Position numbers and translations under genes: made by a program. A DNA stretch of 59,454 nucleotides, taken from positions 1-59,454 of the forward strand of contig DJLT01000064.1 of the NCBI GenBank assembly GCA_002435145.1, in the 5' to 3' direction. Below, one piece after another: positions 53,712-59,454 of the stretch. Every line of letters starts with the position of its first letter. Positions within the stretch are counted from its first letter, which is position 1. The notes beneath the pieces are model-generated. The model saw only the letters and a program-made list of their open reading frames with translations. It did not search any database and was not told the origin of the DNA. This stretch comes from Neptuniibacter sp. UBA6509. GTDB taxonomy: Bacteria; Pseudomonadota; Gammaproteobacteria; Pseudomonadales; Balneatricaceae.

Positions 53712-55850
53712 ATGCAGCCTTCACTAAAATCATTTCCAATTAAAAAACTCGCCATTCTAGTCTCTGCGGTGATCACCCCCATCTCTGTATTTGCAGAAGA
53801 GATCGCTGTTCCCGACACAATAACAGTGACTGCAACCCGCGCAGAACGTAACTCGGCAGAAGTGCCTGAAAGCATCGCCATCATTGATCAGAAACGAATA
53901 GAACAAGAGAAGATGTATAACATCGCCGATGCCCTGAAAGGTACGCCCGGCGTATTAATTGAATCCACCAGCGGTGGTTACAGCTCACGTATGATCGTCC
54001 GTGGTGCTGGGTTAAAAGCGCAATACGGTATTCGTGAAATTATGGTGCTTAGAGACGGCGTGCCCATTACCGATCCAGACAGCTTCACCCGTATGGACTT
54101 TATCGACACGCAAGACATAGAACAGATAGAAGTAAGTAAAGGGCCTGGCAATATTTACGCCACAGGCTCCACAGGGGGCGCGATCCATATCATCTCAAAA
54201 TCAGTATTTGATGATAGACGCGACCAGATACGTTTAGGCGCAGGCGAAGAGGGTCACAAGAACGTTCACCTTCGCAAGTCACTTATGTCCGATGAAGGTC
54301 ATGCTTTTGCATTTACCGCATCCCACCGCAAAGCCGACAACGACTGGCGCAGACATAATGAATTTGAATCTAACCAGTTCAGCCTTAAAGGTGGATTCCT
54401 TCTCTCTGATAACAGTGAACTAGAAACAGAGTTCAGCTACACCAAAGCTAAGCTAAACCTGCCCGGTGATATGAACGAGAGTCAATTTGAAGAATACAAA
54501 CGTACAGGTAAACAAACCGACAACGACAGCGCGTTTAAACACTCGGCACGTGATTCCGAAATATTCTTTTTCAATAGCCGACTCAACGTCGAGTTAGGGG
54601 CACTCACACTAAAACCTCGCCTTTACTACAACCACTGGACACACTTCCACCCTGTCACTGGCGCGATCAATGACACACCGGGTGTTGATATCTGGGGCAC
54701 AGATTTAGAGCTTGAATACGCACACGAGCTACTCGGTAAAGACACGCTGGTCAGCGGCCTAACCTACCGCCAAGACAGAAACATGAATGCGAAGAAATAC
54801 GCCTACGCAGACATTGCCACAGCGGGCCCCGTTATTACCAGTACTCTATCTGATAGAAAGGGCGATCTGCTAGAGGAGCAAGATGAGATCAATACCGTCT
54901 ACGGCGTCTTCCTTCAAGAAAACCTAAGGCCTAACGACAAGCTATTGATCGATGCAGGCTTTCGCTACGACCACATCACAATAGAACAAGACACCTGGAG
55001 CAGCGATACCTCTTATAACTATGGGATGGGCGGCTACCTAACAGTGCCTGGTAGCGGCGGCAATAGTGAACTGAAGCACAGCTTCGACCTATTCTCACCT
55101 CGTATTGGCGTAAGCTATAAGCTAAACCAAAACTTCACCCTATTCGGCAATATTGCGCAAGGCGAGCAAGTCCCTTTTGCCAGCGAACTGGAAAGTAACG
55201 ACGACCTTAAAAACGCCACCAGCCGTAGTATAGGGATAGGGATTAAAGGCCGGTCGCATACATGGCAGTTTGATCTCAATGCTTATGTCAGTGAAGTAGA
55301 AGATGAGATCATCAACGTACGCACAGATGGCGAAAGCATCTACCAAAACGCAGGAAGTACCGATAAAAAAGGTATCGAGTTCAGCGGTTCATTCCAAGTA
55401 CTAAAGGAACAGATTGCCGGTCAACTCGCGCTAGGCTTTAACTATGCCTATAGCGATTACAGCTACAACGAATTCTCAGAAATCGTTTACGGCATGGGTC
55501 CACCGACCAACTTTGATCGTTCAGGTAACCAACTCCCCTTTATCCCTGAGCACTACTACAGCATCAATGCAGACTATACGCACCCAAGTGGTGTTAAAGC
55601 GCGCATTCAAGCGGATAGCTGGGGTGAGTATTACCTAGACCACGCAAACAGTGAGAAGTATGGCGGTTATGACTTTGTCACTAGCGTTAATCTTAGCTAT
55701 GCCAAAGGCCCACATGACATTAGCTTAAACGTGCAGAACCTGTTCGATAAACGTTATGCCGTTGAAGTTACCAAAGATACCAGCGGAGACAAAGCGTTCT
55801 CAGCAGGAGCACCCCGTTCAGCCATGCTGAGTTATCGTTATCAGTTTTGA
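53712..55850 (+). CDS. TonB-dependent outer-membrane receptor
   Basis: A 712-residue receptor: signal peptide (cleaved near VFAEE), a TonB-box-like DTITVTA, a plug domain (about 40-150: NIADALKGTPGVLI, GPGNIYATGSTGGAIHI) and a C-terminal barrel ending in YRYQF. Ligand unknown. No Fur-box-like sequence was seen upstream; instead a large GC-centred palindrome lies beside the promoter, which argues against simple iron control. Confidence 0.92.
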   Translation: MQPSLKSFPIKKLAILVSAVITPISVFAEEIAVPDTITVTATRAERNSAEVPESIAIIDQKRIEQEKMYNIADALKGTPGVLIESTSGGYSSRMIVRGAGLKAQYGIREIMVLRDGVPITDPDSFTRMDFIDTQDIEQIEVSKGPGNIYATGSTGGAIHIISKSVFDDRRDQIRLGAGEEGHKNVHLRKSLMSDEGHAFAFTASHRKADNDWRRHNEFESNQFSLKGGFLLSDNSELETEFSYTKAKLNLPGDMNESQFEEYKRTGKQTDNDSAFKHSARDSEIFFFNSRLNVELGALTLKPRLYYNHWTHFHPVTGAINDTPGVDIWGTDLELEYAHELLGKDTLVSGLTYRQDRNMNAKKYAYADIATAGPVITSTLSDRKGDLLEEQDEINTVYGVFLQENLRPNDKLLIDAGFRYDHITIEQDTWSSDTSYNYGMGGYLTVPGSGGNSELKHSFDLFSPRIGVSYKLNQNFTLFGNIAQGEQVPFASELESNDDLKNATSRSIGIGIKGRSHTWQFDLNAYVSEVEDEIINVRTDGESIYQNAGSTDKKGIEFSGSFQVLKEQIAGQLALGFNYAYSDYSYNEFSEIVYGMGPPTNFDRSGNQLPFIPEHYYSINADYTHPSGVKARIQADSWGEYYLDHANSEKYGGYDFVTSVNLSYAKGPHDISLNVQNLFDKRYAVEVTKDTSGDKAFSAGAPRSAMLSYRYQF

Positions 55851-55874
55851 TGATTGAGATTAGCATGTAGCAAC

Positions 55875-55902
55875 AAGCCACCTATTAAAGGTGGCTTTTT
55901 TG
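55875..55902 (+). terminator. intrinsic terminator after the receptor gene
   Basis: AAGCCACC (55875-55882) and GGTGGCTT (55890-55897) form an eight-pair stem with a seven-base loop followed by a T-run. Confidence 0.9.
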
Positions 55903-55930
55903 ATTCACGCGATTCGTTTTTAAGAAAGTT

Positions 55931-56157
55931 CCCTTTGTAGGAAGCCACCCCGTGCGCGAGCTTTTGATTTTTTCTTTTAGGCTTTCAGCCTTTAAGGGGG
56001 AACAACAGCTCTTTCCCTTAAAAATACACTCTTGTAAAAACAGCCGCCTATTCCTTGTTTCGCTCCGCTCAATTCCCCGCTGGAGCTCAGCCCCCTGAGC
56101 GAGGTTTGTTCTTTTCGATACTCGGCTGCGTCAAAGGTGTTTGATTCCGTGCCAATT
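55931..56157 (+). repeat. ~228 bp structured repeat, copy 1
   Basis: Shares long stretches with the other two copies: CAACAGCTCTTTCCCTTAA, GATACTCGGCTGCGTC and GTGCCAATT at the end. Hairpins seen: TTTAAGGG/CCCTTAAA with G-U pairs inside, GCTCAG-CCCC-CTGAGC (56085-56100), and TCAAA/TTTGA. CAGCCG (56041-56046) can pair with CGGCTG (56123-56128). It fills most of the gene-free 55851-56276 stretch after the receptor; the remaining bases hold nothing recognised. Confidence 0.85.
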
Positions 56158-56276
56158 CCAGAGTAAATCCCAATAACATATCATGCGATTTAATTGGAAA
56201 GCTTTTCCTAAGCGCGATTACTTCGTAATTCCTATTAACTCCGCTTAACCTCTAAAACTGAACACCGCGCTTTCGC

Positions 56277-56738
56277 TTAATTAGATTTAGCCATTGAAGT
56301 CATTTGCTGCCTAATGCTCTCAATTCGTTTTCGGTTCACACCAAAATCGAAGTACCCCTCTCTTGCAGAAGACCGCACATGAATCAATACGTCATCAGAG
56401 TTATCCACATTAATAATTAAAAACTCAATATCATCAACGAAACCAAAAACTTTGGATGCACACTCAGCCCTAACATAGTTTCCTTCCGCTGAGGTGATTA
56501 CGGTTCGCTCGATCCCTTCCAATATCGTTAGCAGATCTTTTTTAACTGCCGACACAGAACCTGTCGCTTTAATTGGCTCAATATAATGAGCTTCATCGCT
56601 GGCCTGACTACTGACACACTTCGGTGATGATGGGCATGCTTCCAACAGGCTATTCTGAACGCCTAATTTTGGCATAGCTCCTGAGCAGCCGGTTAAGATT
56701 AGCAAGCAAAAGAAAGCGGTGAGGGTTTGTTTATTCAA
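56277..56738 (-). CDS. DUF1499 family lipoprotein
   Basis: A 153-residue protein with a signal peptide and lipobox (LILTGC), then the DUF1499 core: ACPSSPKCVSS, HYIEPI, VFGFVDDIEFLI and VRSSAREGYFDFGVNRKRIE. The role of the domain is unknown. It lies between repeat copies 1 and 2, on the minus strand. Confidence 0.88.
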   Translation of the reverse strand: MNKQTLTAFFCLLILTGCSGAMPKLGVQNSLLEACPSSPKCVSSQASDEAHYIEPIKATGSVSAVKKDLLTILEGIERTVITSAEGNYVRAECASKVFGFVDDIEFLIINVDNSDDVLIHVRSSAREGYFDFGVNRKRIESIRQQMTSMAKSN

Positions 56739-56814
56739 GGGAGTCTCCAGAAATTAGGGTGGCGCTTTTTATAAGCTCGCATAGGGTAAATATAGGGGAA
56801 GTTGTTGGAATATG

Positions 56815-57042
56815 CCCTGTTGGAAGCCACCCTTTATGCCCGGAGGGTGCCAGTGCGAGGTTTTGATTTGTTCTTGTAGGCTTTCAGCCCTTAAGGGAAA
56901 ACAACAGCTCTTTCCCTTAAGAATACACTCTTGTAAAAACAGCCTCCTGTTCCCTGTTGGAGCTCAGCCTCTGAGCGAGGTTTTAGTCCTTGTCTTTTTT
57001 GTGATACTCGGCTGCGTCAAGATGTTTGAGTCTGTGCCAATT
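56815..57042 (+). repeat. ~228 bp structured repeat, copy 2
   Basis: Begins CCCTGTTGGAAGCCACC, as copy 1, and ends GTGCCAATT. Contains the perfect stem CTTAAGGGAAA / TTTCCCTTAAG (56890-56921), GCTCAG-CCT-CTGAGC (56962-56976), and CAGCC (56940-56944) that can pair with GGCTG (57010-57014). It occupies most of the gene-free 56739-57247 interval; the rest holds no gene I can support. Confidence 0.85.
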
Positions 57043-57247
57043 TTAAAAAACTTACTCTGCCCCAAATTATCTTCTTGGCTGTGTCTACTTTGGCATTTTC
57101 GAACTCCTCGTTAGTTTGAGGTGTTTGTTTTAACGGGTGAGATTCAGCGTCCTAATTGACGCGCTTGTTACATATCTGCTCCAGCCATTTAATCAAGCCA
57201 CGAGCGACTAAAAACTAATATTGATCTACAGCCCAGCACAAGTTTTT

Positions 57248-58459
57248 TCATTCGAGTTCACGTCGTTCCTTACTAATAGCGTTCGCTAGCATTTTGTCCG
57301 GCGGAGGCAGCATTCGTTGATACTCAAGTGCTTTGAGAACCCCGTACATTAATTGTGGATGAAGATAGTTAACTTGATAGATACGACCTCTTCTTGCCTT
57401 CGTTTTAATCAGCCCCTTTTCAAGCATAGCGCCAAGCAATCTTGATCTGTATGCAGGGGCCAGCTTGAGGTCTTCGGTATCACCTGTTTTGAAACTTTCC
57501 AGATGATAGACACATCTCAGAATTTTATGATCATTCTGCTCAATCTTCCCTTGTTCATAAGCGCCGTTGATGGCTGAAAGTAGGATATGTTCTTTCACAA
57601 ACTCAAAATCCATAAGATTTGTAACCTTTTTGAATTCTTTAACGATTCCACCCAATACGTATACAAGCCACTCCTCTTTAGCAGTATCGTTTGATAGGTC
57701 GTCACAGGCAGATAATCTAGCATTGTATTCTGATCTATCTCCACAAAATATGGACGATGGAGTAAGCAATCCCGCGACGCTAAAATTAGCCTTGATTAAC
57801 ATAGCATGAGTAAGTAATCGTCCGACTCGACCATTTCCGTTATTGAATGGATGAACCCAAGCAAAAGCTTGGTGCGCCTGTCCGATCTTTATAGCATCAT
57901 ATTTCTTACCATGATCCGCTTCGATAAACTCAAATAGACGCAGCATATATTGGGCATTATCTGGAAAAACTGGCGGGTAGTGATATTTTCCGGTTGTTTC
58001 GCTCCCTACACGCCTGACTCCCTCTTCCTTGATAAATGAATATTGCCCTGGATGCATATCGCCGTCGCCGCCAGCCTGTACGGGTGTCAGTCCATCCACA
58101 ACAATTTCATGAAGTTGACAGATAAGATCACCGTCTATATCTCCTTCATTCTCAAGATGCTTCATCGTGTACGTCAAGGCCTTCTCATAATTGGAAATTT
58201 CCTTGATAGGCTCTTTCACAAAATCACCGGATTGCCTAGCTTGGGCATACTCAACTATCTCTGTTGTGTTGCCCTCAAGTCTAAGGGACATCAGGCTTTC
58301 TGCAGAATGAAGAATGTCTTTGAGCTGGAAAAAAAGCCAGTCCGGTGTAGTACCATGAGGCCTATAAGCCCTAAGCTCCTCAAGCTCGAAGCCCAAATCA
58401 ACAACAGGGCTATCGTAAGAAATTGGCCAAAGACTGAATGATTTGACATTGGAACTCAT
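57248..58459 (-). CDS. Fic family protein, class II architecture
   Basis: A protein of about 403 residues that probably transfers AMP from ATP to a target hydroxyl. The catalytic motif HPFNNGNGRVGR is intact (57820-57856), and the inhibitory helix motif S-x3-E-G is present in the N-terminal half as SLRLEGN (about 58267-58288), which marks class II. The C-terminal winged-helix region is basic. The ATG at 58459 has GTGAG upstream; a GTG 4 codons earlier is less likely. No toxin-antitoxin partner is visible, consistent with self-inhibition. It lies between repeats 2 and 3. Confidence 0.93.
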   Translation of the reverse strand: MSSNVKSFSLWPISYDSPVVDLGFELEELRAYRPHGTTPDWLFFQLKDILHSAESLMSLRLEGNTTEIVEYAQARQSGDFVKEPIKEISNYEKALTYTMKHLENEGDIDGDLICQLHEIVVDGLTPVQAGGDGDMHPGQYSFIKEEGVRRVGSETTGKYHYPPVFPDNAQYMLRLFEFIEADHGKKYDAIKIGQAHQAFAWVHPFNNGNGRVGRLLTHAMLIKANFSVAGLLTPSSIFCGDRSEYNARLSACDDLSNDTAKEEWLVYVLGGIVKEFKKVTNLMDFEFVKEHILLSAINGAYEQGKIEQNDHKILRCVYHLESFKTGDTEDLKLAPAYRSRLLGAMLEKGLIKTKARRGRIYQVNYLHPQLMYGVLKALEYQRMLPPPDKMLANAISKERRELE

Positions 58460-58471
58460 AAAAAAACTCAC

Positions 58472-58606
58472 TATATGACATTAACCGAATCAGAAAAGTG
58501 ACATACAAATACAATAAAGGCAATATATACGGGAGCTTAGGCCATACTGTCCATTTAAATAATATGTTACTGGGGTAATGACATGGCCTACTATTATATG
58601 ACATTA
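58472..58606. repeat. paired 12-bp direct repeat upstream of fic
   Basis: TATATGACATTA occurs exactly at 58472-58483 and 58595-58606, with a related TAATGACAT near 58576. The spacing places both in the fic promoter and leader region. They may be operator sites, possibly autoregulatory, but this is only inferred. Confidence 0.5.
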
Positions 58607-58670
58607 GCTCGAGAGATTAATTGATATGAAAGGTTCCTCCATATAATAAAATTTACTCAGACCCCGATTA

Positions 58671-59105
58671 TTACTTAACGACTAACCTCGCAACTACATA
58701 ATCAAAATGCTCTCTTTTAATGCTGATTACAGCCCAATGTGATGAATTATTATCACTGGCGATAAATAACGTAGTGTAATCATCTACATTAACTGCGAAT
58801 CCAAACCCATCATTAGCCGTATCAATAACCGTTGGCTTGTTTGATCCCTTTTGAGCTTCAGTAAAGCCTTCCTTCAAGGCTTCGACCGCCGTATAACCGT
58901 TTATTGTCGGCACTCTCTGTATAGAACCTACCAGTGCTTTTTCTTGGTAGATGTAAATTTCAGTATCTTGCATTTGTAGTCGAAATTTACTCTCCATTGG
59001 CAAGGAGAATTTAATGCCATTAATGGGTTCTATATCGATAGATTGGTTAGAGGAGCAACCCAGTATCAAGATACTTAAGATAAAGATTGAAATGATTTTT
59101 CGCAT
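58671..59105 (-). CDS. hypothetical lipoprotein
   Basis: A 144-residue protein with a signal peptide and lipobox (LILGC, Cys at 17) followed by Ser, and a compact alpha/beta-looking region. No family recognised. It is 66 bases downstream of the fic upstream region on the same strand and may be expressed separately. It is the first gene after repeat copy 3. Confidence 0.75.
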   Translation of the reverse strand: MRKIISIFILSILILGCSSNQSIDIEPINGIKFSLPMESKFRLQMQDTEIYIYQEKALVGSIQRVPTINGYTAVEALKEGFTEAQKGSNKPTVIDTANDGFGFAVNVDDYTTLFIASDNNSSHWAVISIKREHFDYVVARLVVK

Positions 59106-59164
59106 CTAGCTGCGGCCTATTTTGCTCAATGAGAGCCAACGCTTGAGCCCTGTCCATGAATGCA

Positions 59165-59394
59165 TTTTTTCTTTTAGACCTTCGGCCCTTAAGGGAAAAC
59201 AACAGCTCTTTCCCTTAAGAATCCCTTAGCCGCCTGTTCCTTGTTTCGCTTCGCTCAACACCCTGCGTTTCTCTAACTCAGTGGGACGGATATAAACTCG
59301 TCTTTTATATCTTAAGAAGGCTCAAACAAATATCCATCTATTCCAATGAGTTATGCGATACTCGGCTGCGTCAAAGGTGTTTGAGTCTGTGCCA
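59165..59394 (+). repeat. ~228 bp structured repeat, copy 3
   Basis: Same element as copies 1 and 2. It keeps CTTAAGGGAAA / TTTCCCTTAAG (59188-59219), GCCGCCTGTTCCTTGTTTCG, the final GATACTCGGCTGCGTCAAAG and GTGCCAG. AGCCG (59228-59232) can pair with CGGCT (59363-59367). The middle (about 59257-59352) is unrelated to the other copies, lacking the GCTCAG hairpin. Nothing else was seen in 59106-59454. Confidence 0.8.
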
Positions 59395-59454
59395 GCAGGA
59401 AGCTTTTTGGCTACTGCACAATGCAAGACCTGATAATCATATAGTCGCCTCCTC

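Follow-up and report, generated by a model that had tools for sequence, protein, structure and literature searches.

The repeat locus

We studied a stretch of 59,454 bp from Neptuniibacter sp. UBA6509, a genus that the NCBI taxonomy places in the Gammaproteobacteria. This stretch, called the window in the following, is the whole contig C80 of the draft genome G000 (3.88 Mb in 134 contigs; 91% complete). Between positions 55931 and 59394 it carries three same-strand copies of a structured repeat with genes in between. All three are members of an extensive family of dispersed structured repeats in Gammaproteobacteria.

Delimited by their shared ends, the three units span 55967-56154 (188 bp), 56866-57039 (174 bp) and 59164-59394 (231 bp), all on the minus strand. 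They have in common the 3' block GATACTCGGCTGCGTCAA and a 59-nt block that is 90% and 92% identical to that of the reference copy. A first-pass annotation of this DNA had described copies of nearly equal length (227, 228 and 230 bp) in the same orientation, sharing several hairpins. The shared blocks bear out the common orientation. The lengths do not hold for one unit and match partly by a coincidence of boundaries, because copies 1 and 2 had been counted with an upstream REP-like hairpin while only copy 3 has the long central (main) hairpin. Of the three window copies, therefore, one retains the wider family's main hairpin, and copies 1 and 2 show a REP-like palindrome in its place. Two smaller claims could be read from the sequence as described, i.e., the outer stem pair (U-A in copy 1 vs. 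C-G in copies 2 and 3) and the change from AAA in the 5' arm to GGA in copy 1, which faces TTT with G-U pairs on the plus strand.

To score the units we refer to R1, a covariance model built from the alignment A1, which comprises all but one of the 24 copies classed as long at that stage (23 sequences aligned with MAFFT, structure predicted on the same alignment). Copy 1 is of the short type (R1 match 55992-56154, 95.9 bits; repeat families D1-D5). Its tail hairpin at 55991-56022 (minus strand; TTTAAGGGGG..TTTCCCTTAAA on the plus strand) was read from the sequence and corresponds to helix 8 of A1, an alignment without copy 1. Copy 2 is short as well (R1 match 56891-57039, 67.9 bits). Copy 3 is a complete unit of the long type (R1 match 59189-59394), and its 210.3 bits have to be seen in the light of it being one of the 23 sequences behind R1; the model R3, introduced below, assigns it 148.6 bits. 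Its tail hairpin (59188-59219, minus strand) is again helix 8 of A1. The central hairpin domain, with positions read from the sequence, covers 59260-59371 on the minus strand and carries the apical TGTTTGAGC...GACGAGT. Within this domain, the outer arms pair 59274-59284 with 59343-59353 and the inner arms 59288-59293 with 59330-59335.

A pattern scan located the REP-like hairpins, all on the plus strand. Hairpin A (GTAGGAAGCCACCCCGTGCGCGAG) lies at 55937-55965 directly 5' of copy 1 and a variant of it at 56819-56858 before copy 2; copy 3 is without such an upstream hairpin. Hairpin B replaces the central hairpin at 56079-56104 in copy 1 and at 56956-56980 in copy 2. We consider these GTAG/GTTG-type hairpins as separate neighbours, found next to and within two window units.

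The three genes annotated between the copies are on the minus strand. A DUF1499 lipoprotein-like gene (56277-56738; PF07386, E 4.4e-33) lies between copies 1 and 2, and a gene for a Fic-domain protein (57248-58471; PF02661, E 7.1e-14; SoFic, E 2.7e-40) between copies 2 and 3. Both are missing from the matching locus of the related genome G006. The third gene (58671-59105) appears by eye to be small and lipoprotein-like, has no Pfam family and is found in G006 too, with 92.6% identical DNA.

Copies in Neptuniibacter and spread through the class

A 301-bp query round copy 1 yields 48 BLAST matches in G000, where whole and partial matches, the query's own place and matches to the REP-like part are all counted. 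This is in line with the earlier claim of an excess over chance. Further copies in the host and in related genomes, the search for which the first-pass annotation had suggested, are plentiful: R1 matches with E < 1e-10 number at least 20 on nine contigs of G000 and at least 18 in G006, 23 of them being R1's own sequences. Among 35 copies, three without a recognisable 3' block were excluded from the folding comparison; the other 32 were sorted by script into 24 long and 8 short ones.

The distribution is patchy. When searching 57 genomes (G000 and 56 relatives), 54 have no BLAST match to the unit; matches are confined to G000, G006 and G004, and the one in G004 covers only 33 bp in the REP-like part. 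An exact search with the 21-mer of the 3' block hits nine stretches of the GTDB collection, eight from Neptuniibacter sp. PT1 and one from an Amphritea metagenome-assembled genome, a count that may omit the window's own genome. Plasmid and phage collections gave no match to the window unit. A four-unit cluster of the genome G382 had no match among phages and hit seven plasmid records over 48-50 bp outside the units.

At the level of structure, the family reaches much further. We scored 6 or 7 candidates per genome in evenly drawn, overlapping genome samples that include G000. Within the order, R1 finds matches in 30 of 390 genomes and 13 of 142 genera (E <= 0.01; the weakest of these may be chance), with distant relatives in other genera scoring up to 91.5 bits. 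The second model, R3, was built from the alignment A6, which holds 43 matches (E <= 1e-7; L034:5922 is a partial one) taken from 26 selected sources and is fitted to the model. With R3, 78 of 369 genomes and 63 of 272 genera of the class are positive at E <= 1e-4, and the 23 positive genomes in a sample of 398 from the phylum all fall into the same class. A further model, R2, did not capture the inner stem and was left out of the searches.

No Rfam family matches the window at the gathering threshold. Under lax settings, the region 55800-59454 shows three weak matches, one of them over copy 3 (E 4.5), and in L063 the family MIR1437 covers two units (E 0.0061) with 38.1 bits vs. the 168 needed.

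Structure and covariation

On the minus strand, a unit begins with TGGCAC..., followed by the base arm GACGCAGCC, GAGTATCGC, two stem segments separated by a bulge, the apex TGTYTGAGC..GCGAGT, the two returning stem segments and GAGAAACRCAGGG. Thereafter come a small hairpin, the base arm GGCGGCT and the tail hairpin TTAAGGGG..CCCCTTAA. In a unit of about 190-230 bp, the base helix thus encloses the long hairpin, and one or two tail hairpins follow. Stem sequences are nearly free and yet paired; constant are the apex, the bulge on one arm and the base, and the motifs of apex and base recur across genera.

The covariation computed from the alignments, likewise a check that had been suggested, supports the view that structure is conserved beyond mere sequence. 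In A1, 97.6% of the cells are paired and 15/43 pairs show double changes; covariation scores 0.295, and 0.018-0.081 when the partners are slid. Of five measures, one (further pair types) stays within the range of the shuffles, as 471 of 500 reach its value. For the wider A6, 91.2% of the cells are paired, double changes occur in 39/43 pairs, and the score rises to 0.620 (slid partners: 0.080-0.119). The alignment A5, made by MAFFT without a model from 30 hand-chosen cores, shows double changes in 12 of 14 predicted pairs.

The AGCC/GGCT helix reported to join the two unit ends was also recovered. It is 100% paired in the 23 long copies of A1, where 3/5 of its pairs are invariant, and 81.9% paired in the 43 sequences of A6, where 3/5 pairs show double-sided changes. 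Pairs of the long stem in A6 are mainly Watson-Crick (838, besides 37 G-T and 9 A-C). Over all of A6, 95 of the 1480 standard pairs are G-U, i.e., wobble pairs are tolerated.

Apex and one-sided bulge

The apex consists of TGTYTGA, a short GC-rich mini-hairpin that is usually GNA-capped, and GAGT. We found this motif in 98 of the 106 model-matched units outside Neptuniibacter. Their loops comprise 76 triloops (71 GNA, 5 other), 9 GNNA tetraloops and 13 others. A search for the motif only, be it within units or not, lists 152 apices with 115 GNA, 7 other triloops, 8 GNNA and 22 other loops; N of GNA is A in 53, C in 42, T in 17 and G in 3 of them. For the 24 Neptuniibacter apices, 11 are GNA and 11 have loops of at least 10 nt as peeled.

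The 5' arm carries a bulge of 4-6 nt. The larger bulge is on this arm in 20/21 Neptuniibacter hairpins and in 128/135 others (2 equal, 5 reverse). GNA-capped mini-hairpins are of unusual stability as DNA. We therefore keep single-stranded DNA as a possible recognised form.

The apical TTGTYTGAGCGNAGCGAGTT is also found in 54 IMG/VR contigs. Six of them (L130, L135, L142, L144, L154, L160) show long hairpins with this same apex, having been chosen for visible stems; the commonest form (L132-type) is without such a stem. Only 4/7 hairpins of viral contigs have the larger bulge on the 5' arm, R1 matches on these contigs are weak (best E 0.00067), and searches of viral contigs with the 21-mer of the 3' block and with a tail pattern gave no hit. 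Lax Rfam matches on the viral contigs lie away from the motif only (best: manA, 54.3 bits vs. 55.2 needed). Kinship of these hairpins to the repeat family is thus uncertain.

Strand polarity

From the G-U pairs, the first-pass annotation had deduced a plus-strand RNA. This is not supported over the family. The argument rested on copy 1, which is exceptional in that its minus strand has two A-C. The consensus of the 24 long copies folds with an energy of -42.2 on the minus strand vs. -26.8 on the plus strand, and the model-fitted A6 shows 95 G-T to 13 A-C on the minus strand overall. In the alignment A4, whose counts are also model-fitted and include weak rows, the respective minus-strand ratios of G-U to A-C are 36:8 (Neptuniibacter) and 33:12 (other genera) for the long stem, 50:5 and 20:2 for the tail hairpin, and 8:6 and 28:1 for the base.

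Three methods of aligning the arms disagree on the strand. An unfitted, strand-neutral alignment with affine gaps provides 13:0 and 55:21 in favour of the minus strand (viral contigs 3:0), a cruder one with linear gaps 11:8 and 69:49 (viral 3:0), and the first and crudest one 0:25 and 51:96, with 17:8 for the tail hairpin and 7:1 for the viral contigs. Copy 3 alone folds nearly equally well on both strands as RNA (z -2.49 and -2.45), while z is -1.98 for its minus strand as DNA. The region 55800-59454 contains seven terminator-like sites (shuffles: mean 3.1, standard deviation 1.7), three of them inside units; all are on the plus strand and none on the minus strand. Over the family, the evidence leans towards the minus strand. 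RNA and single-stranded DNA are indistinguishable from these data.

Genomic placement and gene turnover

We assessed the orientation of flanking genes based on open reading frames of at least 100 amino acids called by script; some weak matches are included, orthologous and duplicate loci were removed, and the counts stand without a computed background. In other genera, 29 of 78 clusters lie between convergent, 43 between codirectional and 6 between divergent genes (11 more lacked a flank). For Neptuniibacter, the respective counts are 12, 21 and 5 of 38 (2 more lacked a flank). Units are thus mostly found at gene 3' ends.

In Neptuniibacter, most units stand alone, and for 25/35 single copies the 5'-side gene reads into the unit; this bias is weak in other genera (24/42). 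Inverted pairs with facing 5' ends are frequent in the latter, i.e., the order '-+' occurs in 23/78 clusters and '+-' in 5.

The reported alternation with accessory genes agrees with the Neptuniibacter loci that we looked at. Many copies of other genera lie beside long genes that look ordinary by eye. Besides Fic and DUF1499, the genes by or between Neptuniibacter units encode MqsA/MqsR, DUF6708, OmdA, a YcxB-like protein, an alpha/beta hydrolase, a 2-thiouracil desulfurase and a HicB-like antitoxin; the other 9 of the 10 proteins in the test that identified HicB are without a Pfam family. In G006, Septu genes (PtuA/PtuB) are placed between units at L035:8101-9841. Outside the genus, a KAP NTPase (PDC-S20 by PADLOC) lies between two direct units of G1111 (L229:2484-4004), and three further between-unit proteins of other genera (L231, L232, L194) had no match in Pfam or PADLOC.

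One-direction arrays of the form gene-unit-gene-unit are seen in G006 (L034; L036). At L036:4116-9089 in G006 and L027:12116-15750 in G000, tandem genes are each followed by a unit, and the two genes tested (one per locus) encode DUF6708. Stop codons at L036 lie 10-11 nt before the conserved block. Neighbouring genes resemble, by eye only, parts of a type VI secretion system.

The matching locus in G006 (L033) shares the TonB receptor region and the small lipoprotein-like gene with the window. The block formed by copy 1, the DUF1499 gene, copy 2 and the Fic gene is missing. In its place we find a different REP-like hairpin, GTGGGAGGGGCCACTGGCCGCGA, and the 21-nt TTTTTTTCTTTTAGGCTTTCA, which resembles the outermost part of a unit's tail and abuts the lipoprotein flank. 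This block was therefore gained or lost at the window locus with one end inside a unit-like stretch.

In three genomes of one genus (G1037, G1118 and G682; Stenotrophomonas-like, as judged from their GTAG-tagged REPs), unit pairs sit at the same loci within DNA of about 85-95% identity, each pair combining two stem types with one unit apiece. At 2/3 pair loci (L236/L243/L246 and L244/L247), the order within the pair is swapped between species as if inverted, and a fourth locus, L238/L242/L248, holds a single unit with opposite strand. These units are old in place yet recombining or inverting.

Interpretation

We consider the family best explained as a strand-polar, non-autonomous dispersed element of the ERIC/BIME/BOX-like kind, whose fold is kept because a copying or moving factor recognises it as a single strand. 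We assign this reading a probability of about 45%. Something that copies or moves the unit in trans would recognise the folded strand and so preserve its pairing; the unit would settle mostly at gene 3' ends, where harm is presumably least. In Neptuniibacter, copies may accumulate at variable loci, and the accessory-gene blocks between them would be gained and lost by recombination.

Several observations weigh against this reading. We looked for enzymes in 12 carriers among 25 genomes. A match to the Y1 transposase family (Y1_Tnp) is present in G000 and G006 but was not found in 5/12 carriers (G087, G221, G158, G203, G014), whose assemblies are not all complete. Reverse transcriptase (RVT_1) has a match in G000 and was not found in 6/12 carriers, including G006. 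Since each went undetected in many carriers, neither seems to be required by the current ones, and we rejected the RAYT hypothesis and the retroelement hypothesis, the latter covering retron, DGR and group II intron RNAs. That is, none of the mobilising enzymes searched for in the 12 carriers tracks the repeat family. Also, neither a target-site duplication nor a clean empty site was seen at yicC or at the Stenotrophomonas-like and G422 sites. As candidates for empty sites all three were rejected: yicC looks like an island hotspot, the unit-less Stenotrophomonas-like site has unrelated sequence instead, and the G422 site is too diverged. Finally, units shared in position by two or three congeneric species indicate that many are old and stable, which would suit a host function, and a repeat that is purely parasitic would not normally stay conserved throughout a class.

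With regard to yicC, the sequence after its 3' end differs between species of one genus (L092-L099) and, by eye, holds several integrase-like genes.

A host-selected RNA is the strongest competitor, which we rate as somewhat less probable but serious. Here, the unit would form the 3' part of the upstream gene's mRNA and would control its stability or termination, or bind a protein at the apex. The modelled minus-strand preference (-42.2 vs. -26.8; 95:13), the tolerated wobble pairs, the 25/35 Neptuniibacter copies read from the 5'-side gene, the few promoter-side (divergent) positions (6/78) and the covariation across genera would all be expected of such an RNA. Harder to reconcile with it are the weak sense bias in other genera, the frequent inverted pairs (23/78) and the terminator-like sites of the window region, every one of which is on the plus strand. 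In addition, the window has no Rfam family over threshold, and GNA triloops are noted for being stable as DNA.

It is improbable that the units are cassette recombination sites in the manner of integron attC, i.e., folded single strands cut by an undescribed recombinase that would move single accessory or defence genes. A one-sided bulge and an invariant apex on a freely varying stem, the one-direction arrays of G006, cargo such as MqsRA, HicB, DUF6708, Septu and the KAP NTPase between direct units, and the absence of the window block from G006 would fit such sites. We rejected an integron proper, since no integron integrase (TIGR02249) over the cut-off was found in G006 or in the 91% complete draft G000, though 5/11 genus members have one and G003 and G009 have partial matches (L052-L058). 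The sole junction that could be read, the stub in G006, ends in a unit tail and thus points to no fixed base. Furthermore, many units of other genera lie between long, ordinary-looking genes, and ordinary homologous recombination between 190-bp repeats would give the same outcome. We likewise have little confidence in an undescribed gene-moving system of Gammaproteobacteria that would use the unit as its recognition site. A folded, strand-polar hairpin of single-stranded DNA, with its GNA-capped apex and one-sided bulge, would then serve outside integrons to capture and exchange single genes (accessory, toxin-antitoxin, DUF6708 and anti-phage ones), and scattered solo copies would be relics.

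A functionless origin, where hairpin-templated correction during replication keeps quasi-palindromes perfect and lets their arms covary free of selection, would agree with the dominance of Watson-Crick pairs in the long stem and with inverted pairs in which related species have the two units in exchanged order, as though palindromes were prone to recombine, but is doubtful, as such correction should erase the one-sided bulge, which is kept in 128/135 hairpins, and the motifs of apex and base recur across genera.

These repeats may move or mark defence genes. A structured repeat in 78/369 genomes of the class keeps its pairing across genera, yet passes no Rfam threshold in the window. The covariance model opens the alternatives of RNA vs. 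single-stranded DNA and of parasite vs. host element to testing.

Comparison with known repeats and recombination sites

We compared the family with described systems; it is best filed with the ERIC/BIME/BOX kind, and no named family matched. ERIC is a long imperfect intergenic palindrome of about 127 bp, non-coding, present in several genera and conserved in sequence. In the repeat family, stem sequences vary between genera while the pairing is kept, a distinction that relies on this general description of ERIC. Integron attC sites conserve structure over sequence and form strand-polar hairpins with extra bases on one arm. The family resembles them in its conserved structure, the polarity of its hairpin and the gene-site-gene arrays, but differs in that G000 and G006 have no integron integrase over the cut-off and no site-specific junction is seen: the one junction at L033 falls inside a unit tail, with R/L boxes sought by eye only.

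REP/BIME elements are characterised as extragenic, mostly located between codirectional or convergent genes, often arranged in inverted pairs and probably non-autonomous (PMC3733652, PMC2718517). Our family agrees in being extragenic, in its codirectional or convergent placement and in its inverted pairs. However, REP/BIME elements are 20-40 bp long, have a GTAG/CGTC tag and are RAYT-linked, whereas the repeat unit measures 174-231 bp, shows no such tag by eye, and no Y1 transposase was found in 5/12 carriers.

ERIC is named among the miniature inverted-repeat transposable elements in PMC3733652. For the window units, no long terminal inverted repeat is listed. Several units of G482 (L216-L221) have, by eye, a further pair of long complementary arms outside the usual base.

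BOX and SPRITE of Streptococcus pneumoniae are, according to PMC3049150, structured interspersed repeats, with BOX being modular and enriched between convergent genes. They share with our family that they are structured and interspersed, but their host belongs to another phylum, and the likeness is one of description only. The same holds for R178 and R200 of Pseudomonas fluorescens, which PMC2718517 reports as interspersed intergenic repeats of 101 and 320 bp. In text searches of open-access papers we did not recognise the repeat family, which may be described elsewhere, and unit sequence strings retrieved unrelated papers only, or none, from open-access paper text.

Further observations

The window contig stops 60 bp past copy 3 (59395-59454), and several other units lie at contig ends, too; these repeats probably break assemblies. 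In G006, the unit L032:4284-4474 is located near a stretch of about 380 bp beside a presumed smpB, presumably the transfer-messenger RNA gene, which is 96-97% identical in G000, G002, G003 and G004.

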